IMG/VR virus record: IMGVR_UViG_3300025769_000662
Location: 1 to 27,447 of that record
Direction: 5' to 3' (one strand)
Length of the DNA stretch: 27,447 nucleotides
From: a virus
Position 1 is the first letter of the stretch; each line of letters starts with the position of its first letter. Positions 1-25,044 of the stretch are shown here, one piece after another. A model generated the notes under the pieces. That model made no database searches and was not told where the DNA came from. It was given only the letters and a program-made list of their open reading frames with translations. The translations under genes were made by a program, and so were the position numbers.

Positions 1-204
1 CCTGAGATGGCACGTATGGTACTACCTCAGAGCATGTTTACTGAGTGGTACTGGACAGGCAGCCTTATGGCCTTCATCAGGGTGTGTTCTCTTAGGATTA
101 AGGAAGATGCACAAGAGGAAACCAAAGACATTGCATCTATGATAGATGTAGAGTGTTCACATCTTTTCCCTGTATCTTGGGAACAACTAATGAAACTCTC
201 GTAG
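1..204 (+). CDS. thyX: Flavin-dependent thymidylate synthase ThyX, C-terminal part (5' end outside window)
   Basis: The reading frame is open from base 1 and ends at TAG 202-204. The visible 67 or so residues contain PEMARMVLPQS, then TEWYWTGSL and LRIKEDAQEETKDIA, and end near FPVSW. This is the characteristic C-terminal part of ThyX, where the Arg of 'AR.VLP' and the 'TE.YWTGSL' helix contribute to the dUMP/FAD site. ThyX makes dTMP from dUMP with methylenetetrahydrofolate and FAD, and phages use it to supply thymidylate during replication. The signature motif RHRxxSxNxxS would lie upstream of the window. The last ten bases overlap the tRNA that follows. Recognition is by motif, without an alignment. 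Confidence 0.88.
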   Translation, partial: PEMARMVLPQSMFTEWYWTGSLMAFIRVCSLRIKEDAQEETKDIASMIDVECSHLFPVSWEQLMKLS

Positions 205-270
205 CTCAATGGATAGAGCAACAGACTTCTAATCTGTAGGTTGCAGGTTCGAGTCCTGCCGAGAGTGCCA
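195..270 (+). tRNA. tRNA-Arg (anticodon TCT)
   Basis: A full cloverleaf can be drawn. The acceptor stem ACTCTCG (195-201) pairs with CGAGAGT (260-266). The D arm is GCTC...GAGC. The anticodon stem ACAGA (221-225) pairs with TCTGT (233-237) around loop CTTCTAA, with anticodon TCT at 228-230. The T arm is GCAGG-TTCGAGT-CCTGC. A discriminator G and an encoded CCA (268-270) complete 76 nt. It reads AGA, which is the common Arg codon in the genes of this window, so it likely supports phage translation. Its first ten bases lie inside the end of thyX. Confidence 0.95.
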
Positions 271-275
271 AATAA

Positions 276-300
276 ACAGTTGACTTATAAAAGTAACTGT
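276..300. promoter_or_regulatory. Inverted repeat overlapping the -35 region (operator or processing hairpin)
   Basis: ACAGTT (276-281) and AACTGT (295-300) are inverted copies, as are ACTT (283-286) and AAGT (291-294), with one unpaired G at 282 and loop ATAA. The repeat covers the -35 hexamer and most of the spacer of the promoter. It could be an operator for a dimeric repressor, or a hairpin at the 3' end of the thyX-tRNA transcript. There is no U-tract directly after it, so a classical terminator is less likely. Confidence 0.45.
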
Positions 301-308
301 GCTATAAT
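280..308 (+). promoter_or_regulatory. Sigma70-type promoter with extended -10
   Basis: TTGACT (280-285) and TATAAT (303-308) are separated by exactly 17 nt, and the -10 is preceded by TGC, the extended -10 form. Transcription would start near 314-316. It lies between the tRNA and the small heat-shock gene and is the only strong promoter I see in the window. It would use host RNA polymerase holoenzyme to transcribe the plus-strand operon to 6067. Confidence 0.8.
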
Positions 309-358
309 TCGTGTACTCAAATAAAGAATGCTTTAAGGTTCTTTATAATCTTGCTCAT

Positions 359-364
359 AAGGAG
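359..364 (+). promoter_or_regulatory. Shine-Dalgarno of the Hsp20 gene
   Basis: AAGGAG sits 7 nt before ATG 372. It favours that ATG over the in-frame TTG at 351. Confidence 0.8.
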
Positions 365-371
365 AAAAAAT

Positions 372-812
372 ATGATTACAACTACACCTAATCTACCTTC
401 CCATGTATGGAATGATTTCTTTGAATACTCTGTAGGATATGATCAACTTCTTCGTAAAATAATGACTAGTCATAAATACAGAAGTCAGAACAATTCATAC
501 CCTCCTTTTAATGTTTCAAAAAAAGACAGTACAAGTTATGAAATTTCTATAGCTCTTGCTGGATTTACTTCAAAAGACATTGAGGTAACTCAAAAAGATA
601 CTATCTTAACAATTAGAGGCGAGGCAAAAGAAGAAGATACTACAGAATACTTGGTAAAAAATATAGCTTCTCGCGTATTTACAAAAACTTTTGCATTAAA
701 TGAACATGCTAGAGTAGATAACGTATCATTAAATAATGGTATCTTATCTATCATTATTAAGATAGAAGTTCCAGAAGAACAACAACCTAAAACATTTAAG
801 ATTGAGGAGTAA
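372..812 (+). CDS. Small heat-shock protein (Hsp20/IbpA-like chaperone)
   Basis: This 146-aa protein has an alpha-crystallin domain at about residues 38-130. It begins with YPPFNVSKKD and continues with YEISIALAGFTSKDIEV, LTIRGEAKEED, YLVKNIASRVFTKTFAL and NGILSIIIK. The tail PEEQQPKTFKIEE resembles the IbpA-type end with its I-x-I/V anchor. Such proteins are ATP-independent holdases in the cytoplasm that keep unfolding proteins soluble, and they are known from marine phages. ATG 372 is chosen because AAGGAG lies 7 nt upstream. It is the first gene after the promoter, with 2 nt to the next gene, so it should be the most strongly transcribed member of the operon. Confidence 0.88.
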   Translation: MITTTPNLPSHVWNDFFEYSVGYDQLLRKIMTSHKYRSQNNSYPPFNVSKKDSTSYEISIALAGFTSKDIEVTQKDTILTIRGEAKEEDTTEYLVKNIASRVFTKTFALNEHARVDNVSLNNGILSIIIKIEVPEEQQPKTFKIEE

Positions 813-23115: not shown

Positions 23116-25044
23116 TTAACTATTTCCATATGCGTTAGTTAAAATTGCATGAATGTTTTCTCCAGTATTATCACTAGAGACAGATACTACAATATAATCG
23201 AGTCTTCCCACTGCACCATTACTTACATCCAGAGTTGGTACACTTGCTCCTATAAATTTCCAACAAGTGTTATAAGCCAATGTACCACTGCCTCCTGACT
23301 GAACTAAGAAAATGCTTCCTGTTTGTCCTTTGGTAGCATTAGTAGGTCTAGCCAGGGTATGTGCTGCTGTAACTGTGGTAAGAAAGTTTTGAGCATTAGA
23401 GAAGTTTAAGGATACAGAAGTTATACCATTAATAGCTGTTGCTGATATAGCTGCTGCTCCTGACTTAGCCAAGAACAATTGACCACCCAGACTTACATTA
23501 CCTGTAATCTGTGCTGCCCCACCAATCGTAGCTGTACCTCCTACATGTAAATTACCTGATACTGAAGCATCATCATCAAATGTTGCAGCACCTGTTGCCA
23601 AGAACGTACCTCCTATCGAAGTATTACCAGCTACATCTAACGTGCCTCCAACAGTTGTATTACCACTTACACGTACTGTTCCCAAGAATCCTGCTGCACC
23701 ACTAACAGTGGCAGTGCTTAAAAGATTAACTGCACCTCCAATAGATACAGCCCCTCCTATTGAAGCTGCACCAACTACTGTTGCTGTTCCACCAATAACA
23801 ATATTACCTGATACAGATACATCATCATCAAAGGTAGCAGCACCTGTAGACATAAACGTACCACCAACTGAAGTGTTACCTGCAACATCTAGCGTACCAC
23901 CAACTGTTGTGTTACCACTGACTCGCACAGTTCCCAAGAATCCTGCTGCACCTGATACTGTGGCTGTACTGAGAAGATTAACTGCACCACCAATTGATAC
24001 TGCACCTCCTATAGATGCTGCACCTACTATTGTTGTACTACCTCCTACTACTAAATTACCACTTACAGATACATTAGTTTTAAATGTAGCATTACCTGAT
24101 ACTGTGGCTGTACCTCCTACAAGAAGATTAGTAACTGAAACATTTCCTTCAACTGGGGCTGTAATTCCTGTTAAGTTAGAGCCATCTCCAAAGAAAGCAC
24201 TTGCACAAACTTTAGCATTAGTGGCTTGAAGATTACCACCTGCTATTGTAACTGTACCTCCAATATTAACATTACCACTTACAGATACATCATCTTTAAA
24301 ATGTCCTGCTCCTGCTACAGTAACAGTTGATCCTAAGACTGTAGCCCCTTCAAGCGAGGTAGCACCACTAACTCTAACAGACCCTAAGAATCCTGCTGCA
24401 CCACTAACTGTAGCAGTGCTTAAAAGATTTACCGCACCTCCTATAGATACTGCACCTCCTATTGAAGCTGCTCCTGCAACAGTTGCTGTACCTCCAATAT
24501 TTACATTACCGCTTACAGATACATCATCATCAAACGTAGCTGCTCCTGTTGTTATAAGAGTTCCTCCTACAGAGGTATTACCTGCAATATTAAGAGTACC
24601 ACCCAGTGTAGTATTACCACTTACTCTAACTGTACCAAGAAATCCTGCTGCTCCACTAACAGTAGCAGTGCTTAAAAGATTAACTGCACCACCTACAGAA
24701 AGAGTTCCTCCAATTGTAGCAGTGTTTGCAACTATAAGAGAACTTACAGAAGTATCTCCTGTTGCTATAATACTGGTAAGATGTCTACCACTTCCAAAGT
24801 AAGAACTTGCACATACATCTCCATTAACTTTTAAAGAGCCTCCTACAGAAGCACTAGAAGATACTGCAAAGGCACCTCCTATTCTAATAGAATCAGTGGC
24901 TACAAGTAAAGCAGTGTTAGTACCATCTCCTCCCTCAACTTGTGTAAGAGAAGAAGATACAGCACCATTACCACTTACAGCAAGTTTAAGCAGACCTTTA
25001 TAAGTATCAGCTATTCTTTTACCTGTTAAATCAAAATCACTCAT
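23116..25044 (-). CDS. Repetitive beta-rich tail fibre protein (642 aa)
   Basis: The 642-aa protein begins with MSDFDLTGKRIADTYKGLLKLA, a likely attachment region. From about residue 50 to 530 it consists of short repeating strands such as TATVSGAAGFLGTVRVSGNTTVGG, TLDVAGNTSVGG and TFDDDVSVSGN. These look like a beta-helix or stacked-strand shaft. A unit of 84 residues can be traced at four places, and a short module VCASxFFGxGxxLT occurs twice (C78 and C280). The final 90 residues resemble the end of the 307-aa fibre at 18787-19710. It likely forms a trimeric shaft with a receptor-binding tip. Its start overlaps the stop of the Zn-ribbon gene (ATGA). Confidence 0.72.
   Translation of the reverse strand: MSDFDLTGKRIADTYKGLLKLAVSGNGAVSSSLTQVEGGDGTNTALLVATDSIRIGGAFAVSSSASVGGSLKVNGDVCASSYFGSGRHLTSIIATGDTSVSSLIVANTATIGGTLSVGGAVNLLSTATVSGAAGFLGTVRVSGNTTLGGTLNIAGNTSVGGTLITTGAATFDDDVSVSGNVNIGGTATVAGAASIGGAVSIGGAVNLLSTATVSGAAGFLGSVRVSGATSLEGATVLGSTVTVAGAGHFKDDVSVSGNVNIGGTVTIAGGNLQATNAKVCASAFFGDGSNLTGITAPVEGNVSVTNLLVGGTATVSGNATFKTNVSVSGNLVVGGSTTIVGAASIGGAVSIGGAVNLLSTATVSGAAGFLGTVRVSGNTTVGGTLDVAGNTSVGGTFMSTGAATFDDDVSVSGNIVIGGTATVVGAASIGGAVSIGGAVNLLSTATVSGAAGFLGTVRVSGNTTVGGTLDVAGNTSIGGTFLATGAATFDDDASVSGNLHVGGTATIGGAAQITGNVSLGGQLFLAKSGAAAISATAINGITSVSLNFSNAQNFLTTVTAAHTLARPTNATKGQTGSIFLVQSGGSGTLAYNTCWKFIGASVPTLDVSNGAVGRLDYIVVSVSSDNTGENIHAILTNAYGNS
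23560..24790 (-). repeat. Four copies of an 84-aa repeat unit within the fibre gene
   Basis: The marker sequence for GFLG(T/S)VRVSG lies near 23686, 23938, 24388 and 24640, giving spacings of 252, 450 and 252 nt (84, 150 and 84 codons). Protein copies are nearly identical in the stretch SIGGAVNLLSTATVSGAAGF, while the DNA copies differ at many third positions. The 66 extra codons between copies two and three include the second VCASxFFG module. It is coding sequence, not a CRISPR array. Confidence 0.85.

Follow-up and report, generated by a model that had tools for sequence, protein, structure and literature searches.

A phage thyX gene whose stop codon lies within a tRNA-Arg gene

At the start of a linear virus record of 27,447 bases, the whole of which is called the window here, a protein-coding frame enters a tRNA gene of the same orientation and terminates inside it. 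Does the tRNA supply the stop codon of the protein gene, is the arrangement inherited, and what would it mean for a transcript that carries both genes?

The junction and the upkeep of its tRNA

Read from base 1, the coding frame closes with ...CTA ATG AAA CTC TCG TAG. Its 67-residue translation matches the end of the Pfam Thy1 profile (E 9.1e-14, positions 134-191 of 191), so the window starts in the C-terminus of ThyX and the N-terminus lies off the window. Relatives are 81-93% identical over these 67 residues, and their full ORFs are 229-235 aa long. The features of the region are as follows.

1-204, plus strand: 3' part of thyX (flavin-dependent thymidylate synthase; Pfam Thy1), its 5' end beyond the window edge
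193-201, plus strand: final thyX codons AAA CTC TCG (K-L-S); 195-201 form the 5' strand of the acceptor stem
194-195, plus strand: expected RNase P cleavage point, predicted from the tRNA 5' end
195-270, plus strand: tRNA-Arg(UCU) gene with encoded CCA (ARAGORN, anticodon TCT; Infernal/Rfam RF00005)
202-204, plus strand: TAG, both thyX stop and tRNA nucleotides 8-10 (reading frame and tRNA alignment)
260-266, plus strand: 3' strand of the acceptor stem, covarying with 195-201 among relatives
280-308, plus strand: promoter-like TTGACT-17-TATAAT (11 of 12 matches), beginning at the tenth base past CCA, upstream of the Hsp20 gene
351-812, plus strand: Hsp20-like gene (PHROG 432, 4e-36; start codon provisional)

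A preliminary description of this DNA had held that the TAG (202-204) coincides with T8-A9-G10 of the tRNA and that the final ThyX codons lie in the acceptor stem. ARAGORN, Rfam and the reading frame bear this out. The tRNA scan sets the tRNA 5' end at 195; A195 is thus nucleotide 1, the AAA codon (193-195) finishes there, and CTC and TCG occupy nucleotides 2-7. The RF00005 match (195-267) scores 75.7 bits in Infernal against a gathering threshold of 29 and spans the model completely (1-71 of 71). The same description had credited the stop to the near-invariance of T8. That the tRNA supplies an inherited stop stands, with the refinement that T8 by itself forms no stop: TAG is found at 8-10 in 831 of the 1856 viral tRNAs surveyed below, and some stop triplet in 52%. 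An alternative code is unneeded, the 15 ORFs of the window ending in TAA (12), TAG (2) and TGA (1). In these ORFs AGA accounts for 177 of 294 Arg codons, which fits with tRNA-Arg(UCU) being of use.

The tRNA is maintained, since its acceptor stem covaries. All 21 pairs are standard throughout an alignment of 17 tRNAs, 13 of them distinct; six of the seven acceptor pairs vary on both sides and are 100% paired across the 13 distinct rows; none of 500 shuffles matched any of five measures. Three rows (L117, L095 and L115) came from a pattern search in which the core was fixed and the acceptor stem free, and one row is phage CRP-7. A tRNA pseudogene is ruled out by this covariation. Among the thyX rows the 5' strand of the stem reads ACTCTCG, ACTCTCA or GCTTCCG, each with a matching 3' strand. 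The ThyX C-terminus follows the stem sequence, the Lys and Leu codons being retained and Ser alternating with Pro as the stem covaries (KLS or KLP in the group that stops at 8-10; QLP in L118). The minimum free energy fold of 150-310 has the cloverleaf stems (z -2.0), with 11 of 200 shuffles folding equally well, and was not counted as evidence. A Plastid-ycf2 hit to the complementary strand falls short of the Rfam gathering threshold (38 against 65.7 bits) and was discounted as a tRNA look-alike.

Relatives and the history of the junction

The stop at tRNA nucleotides 8-10 is common to the window and 24 further viral contigs, 16 of them found among 80 loci of ThyX relatives and 8 more by a search with the tRNA core; an assembly or annotation artefact is ruled out by this recurrence. 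Across these 25 rows, the window included, there are 10 different sequences at the junction and 16 different ThyX proteins. Because certain contigs nearly duplicate one another or share a metagenome, the 24 are not independent events. In 23 of the 80 loci the thyX stop ends no more than 10 nt from the start of a tRNA-Arg, and the core search found 50 contigs, 33 with thyX just upstream (counting L102/L021, where a gene is inserted).

The preliminary description had proposed checking whether thyX of relatives ends ahead of the tRNA, and the result is mixed. In 34 thyX-tRNA rows including the window, the stop lies at 8-10 in 25, at nucleotide 1 in four and earlier in four, and one row has an insertion. 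The stop at nucleotide 1 is a TAG whose G is the first tRNA base (L018, L019, L022, L121); the earlier one is a TAA ending 5 nt ahead of the tRNA (L020, L023-L025); and in L021/L102 the inserted gene is NifU-like and terminates at nucleotides 21-23 of the tRNA. Since L020 and L023-L025 retain thyX and the tRNA although thyX stops earlier, the overlap is dispensable in at least one lineage. A ThyX tree of 65 rows, which left out 25 of the 80 loci, places 24 of the 25 rows that stop at 8-10 in one clade (100/97), and L118 apart from them with the L018 group. We conclude that this is probably a genuine, inherited same-strand overlap between a phage protein gene and a tRNA gene under selection, in which the tRNA supplies the thyX stop.

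The boundary takes several forms. It reads ATG AAG CTT CCG TAG (L-M-K-L-P-stop) in L007, ATG TAG CTT CCG TAG (L-M-stop-L-P-stop) in L018 and ATA CAG CTT CCG TAG (L-I-Q-L-P-stop) in L118; L020 has its own TAA, yet I-K-L-P-stop can still be read past it. The tRNA is kept in the same frame relative to thyX in all four. At four loci without the tRNA (L027, L029, L033, L036) ThyX ends in ALM-TP-stop or ALM-TS-stop, so the K-L-S/P tail accompanies the tRNA, and ThyX does not need the tail, since the L018-type protein ends at ALM. The simplest history would be that the tRNA came in this frame, that its stop was used first, and that upstream stops were gained later elsewhere. The stop before the tRNA could instead be ancestral and the order the reverse, since polarity was assigned by parsimony and the relevant forks of the tree are weak (91/90, 80/38).

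No cultured phage with the thyX junction was seen in three records examined for it. CRP-212 (65% identical), taken from the 40 listed of 494 phage records matching ThyX, lacks a tRNA over the 4189 bases read. Two phages that match the tRNA-Arg, Melnitz-1 and CRP-7, have it 13 and 8 nt, respectively, after an unrelated CDS. Other genes also precede the same tRNA-Arg. An endonuclease-like ORF stops on its nucleotides 8-10 in L117, and a ribonucleotide reductase (RNR) ends with a TAA whose last A is nucleotide 1 in six contigs (L082, L085, L093, L122, L124 and L127, the family being tested for L082). A 119-aa ORF ends 5 nt before the tRNA in five contigs, and no ORF of at least 40 aa ending close to it was found in 5 of the 17 non-thyX contigs (L084, L095, L105, L115, L119).

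The wider gene order was read from the larger ORFs of L114, the contig of L008: DNA polymerase, an ORF without assignment, a Cas4-type exonuclease, a protein matching NAD synthetase/homing endonuclease, a second unassigned ORF, ribonucleotide reductase, thyX, tRNA-Arg and Hsp20. We take this order to resemble that of HMO-2011-type marine phages. Far from the junction, on the minus strand at 23116-25044 of the window, a long ORF contains, by eye, many near-repeats of a short Val/Ser/Gly/Thr-rich unit; its product is perhaps a tail or fibre protein.

Reading frames that enter viral tRNAs

The wider use of nucleotides 8-10 was surveyed in 477 viral loci picked by T-arm patterns, with 1856 distinct tRNAs. 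We retained the 632 tRNAs with at least 100 tRNA-free codons upstream and excluded 1224; an earlier version, in which 7 of 18 ORFs at 8-10 had another tRNA inside or at their start, was superseded. ORFs of at least 100 aa ending between -90 and +75 number 218 after identical tRNA contexts were dropped and 5 ORFs merged by clustering. Upstream of the tRNA end 167 and inside it 51, of which 24 stop exactly at 8-10; ORFs were called mechanically, and on inspection some among the 24, L157 and L581, seem spurious. In a bacterial control (116 loci, 132 tRNAs, 42 ORFs) 6 ORFs end inside tRNAs and 1 at 8-10; most of these ORFs are implausible by eye, and no contrast between phages and bacteria is claimed.

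Such counts might arise from chance compaction, in which overlaps are random and 8-10 is a hotspot only since about half of tRNAs have a stop triplet there. The anatomy would be the same as under an inherited overlap favoured for its safe stop, and the two differ in selection. The 52% frequency of stop triplets fits this account, as does the tight packing of phage genes, 85 of the 167 upstream-ending ORFs stopping within 10 nt of the tRNA. The frame of entry argues against it, since that frame is set before any stop within the tRNA is reached. Of 57 ORFs open at the tRNA 5' end, 33 are in the frame of T8 (p 1.2e-4, a count independent of where the ORF ends). That frame is used by 27 of 40 where 8-10 is a stop triplet (binomial p 1e-5), versus 6 of 17 where it is none, and longer cut-offs give 22/29 versus 6/16 and 15/20 versus 3/11. 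The contrast between the two kinds of tRNA is modest (one-sided Fisher p 0.025), and the test was unclustered, ORFs from the same contig or from kindred phages not being independent; with one ORF per contig and frame the counts are 28, 12 and 12. Phage ORFs entering tRNAs generally prefer the frame that stops at 8-10, and we regard chance compaction as a real possibility though not the probable one.

Many of the genes that stop at 8-10 are endonuclease-like: 16 of the 24 by Pfam or PHROGs, some with matches below the Pfam curated cut-off (e.g. L699a). Their families are HNH, endonuclease VII, GIY-YIG or T5orf172, and DUF559 and related ones; the remaining ORFs include one cytidylyltransferase, one resembling nucleoside 2-deoxyribosyltransferase, and others with weak or no matches. 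Endonuclease regular expressions, written after the 24 had been seen, match 12 of the 24 versus 13 of the 167 ending before tRNAs (p 1.7e-6), and 7 of the 27 ending elsewhere inside tRNAs, where Pfam finds HNH 3, HNH_3 3, DUF559 1 and PDDEXK_5 1. For the 167 controls only Pfam was used, with counts per family, as against Pfam and PHROGs for the 24; HNH, HNH_3, HNH_5, GIY-YIG and SegE sum to at least 26 there, doubles included, among the first 25 of 59 and of 81 families. Fisher tests using 25/167 were set aside because the control matches were counted per family, from Pfam only, and incompletely listed. The excess of endonucleases at 8-10 over ORFs ending before tRNAs is suggestive only.

Endonuclease-like ORFs are seen in phage tRNA clusters, often ending on 8-10 of the next tRNA (L155, L161, L276, L281, L286, L290, L365, L508, L542, L543, L595, L640, L671, L699, and L728 and L729 from cultured phages). 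In Pseudomonas phage PPSC2 an HNH gene ends on TGA at 8-10 of tRNA-Leu. The same kind of HNH-like ORF ends on tRNA-Leu in phiPsa347 (L729, MT670420.1 28497-29543) and is unannotated in the deposited record, perhaps owing to the tRNA overlap. The HNH ORF ends at tRNA nucleotides 13-15 in Vibrio phage D69 and 1 nt before the tRNA in mistaenkt and Maleficent, so that members of one HNH family stop at 8-10, at 13-15 or 1 nt ahead of the tRNA; the five phages compared were chosen from 113 records that matched a single query. The stop triplet present at 8-10 of many tRNA genes is apparently used repeatedly by phage genes, and annotation can miss these.

Predicted consequences for the transcript and comparison with known systems

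We suggest that a tRNA-Arg(UCU) gene came to sit at the 3' end of thyX and provided its stop. Translation would go three codons into the acceptor stem and terminate on T8-A9-G10, a built-in stop. Because that stop costs only about three residues, such junctions should be tolerable, and tRNA 5' ends may in this way be acceptable neighbours for genes without a stop of their own. Ribosomes that reach the end of an mRNA lacking a stop codon need rescue, as by trans-translation. If thyX and the tRNA are co-transcribed, RNase P cutting before A195 would leave a thyX mRNA ending in ...CUA AUG AA, which would call for such rescue. Cleavage and thyX translation would compete on any single molecule, and a ribosome terminating at 202-204 would mask the acceptor and D stems. 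The earlier statement that a single transcript cannot yield both an intact mRNA and an intact tRNA follows from this anatomy as far as the cut is concerned, and is too strict in that one molecule could be translated first and cleaved later, or the tRNA have a separate transcript.

A tRNA transcript of its own, from a promoter inside thyX, would remove the conflict. Phage promoters can be non-consensus, which leaves room for one, but a consensus scan found no sigma-70-like site in 1-194, a negative of little weight, the nearest being that at 280-308, beyond the tRNA; we hold this reading to be quite improbable. The scan of 1-1000 gave 4 sites versus 3.9 expected from shuffling, and a promoter-like site of at least 9/12 follows the tRNA in 11 of 16 rows examined, a count made without a shuffle control. 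An imperfect inverted repeat (ACAGTTGACTT...AAGTAACTGT, 276-300) overlaps the -35 of the window's promoter-like site, and similar sequence is present in L002-L004, L016 and L017. A hairpin-like GAGGTGCCG...GGGCCTC follows the promoter-like site in L007, L008, L010, L018 and L022 and is partly visible in L004 and L016; the window differs there.

Could the conflict be of use to the phage? Processing of the tRNA might act as a damper or switch, making upstream mRNAs stop-less, capping the output of ThyX (elsewhere of homing endonucleases) and coupling it to tRNA maturation. The conservation of the junction in 24 further contigs, the endonuclease-like 16 of 24 (12/24 versus 13/167 by regular expression) and the preference for the stopping frame (27/40) agree with such a role, and the same logic has been proposed for selB-selC (PMC8124441). 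Against it, thyX and the tRNA coexist in L020 and L023-L025 without overlapping, orthologous HNH genes end 1 nt before the tRNA in two cultured phages, T4 segB ends 5 nt before tRNA-Arg, and the endonuclease excess extends to ORFs ending elsewhere in tRNAs (7/27). A damper is unlikely in our judgement. We are equally doubtful of tRNA maturation as a timer in general use among phages, under which thyX and homing endonucleases in the 8-10 frame would be translated only until RNase P frees the tRNA and leaves the message stop-less. Because thyX stops before the tRNA in one lineage that retains the two genes, tolerance together with a safe built-in stop is favoured over a damper. Most likely the phage tolerates the cost of the conflict, which need not be regulatory. 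If cleavage does make the message stop-less, the junction would tie the maturation of phage tRNAs to mRNA decay and ribosome rescue in a simple way.

The open-licence literature searched yielded no report of a phage coding sequence that terminates at nucleotides 8-10 of a tRNA, and neither the phage thyX case, the 8-10 stop nor the frame preference was found there. Related arrangements are known. In mitochondrial tRNA punctuation, stop codons are completed after tRNA excision. The window is similar in that a tRNA adjoins or overlaps the 3' end of a coding sequence and its excision would set the mRNA end. It differs in that its cut mRNA would end in AUG-AA and not in a T or TA completed to TAA, so added A residues would make Lys codons and no stop; at L018-type and RNR-type junctions, unlike the window, the cut RNA would end in UA. 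Overlapping mitochondrial tRNAs are the subject of PMC4284800.

SegB-type homing endonuclease genes beside phage tRNAs offer a second likeness, tRNA clusters with tightly packed upstream ORFs (PMC13096335); 'overlap' and 'stop codon' are both absent from the main text of that paper. The window differs from such a cassette, its upstream gene being thyX, and segB itself ends before its tRNA-Arg. An endonuclease-like ORF lies directly upstream of the tRNA elsewhere, for example in L117 and L728.

We know of no pathway shared by ThyX (Thy1) and tRNA-Arg, whereas the protein and tRNA of selB-selC are partners. In Mukai 2021 (PMC8124441), tRNA-Sec is nested in or partly overlaps selB, relatives have the stop before the tRNA, and tRNA folding and processing are proposed to repress full-length SelB. 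This overlap is close prior art: an in-frame bacterial ORF runs into a same-strand tRNA, some lineages stopping inside it and relatives before it, just as thyX stops inside the same-strand tRNA-Arg gene, with the overlap conserved in 24 further contigs. The differences are that the selB ORF either crosses the tRNA completely or ends at nucleotides 46-48 (Dyella/Luteibacter), whereas the present case concerns a phage, unrelated partners and a stop that is the built-in triplet at 8-10.
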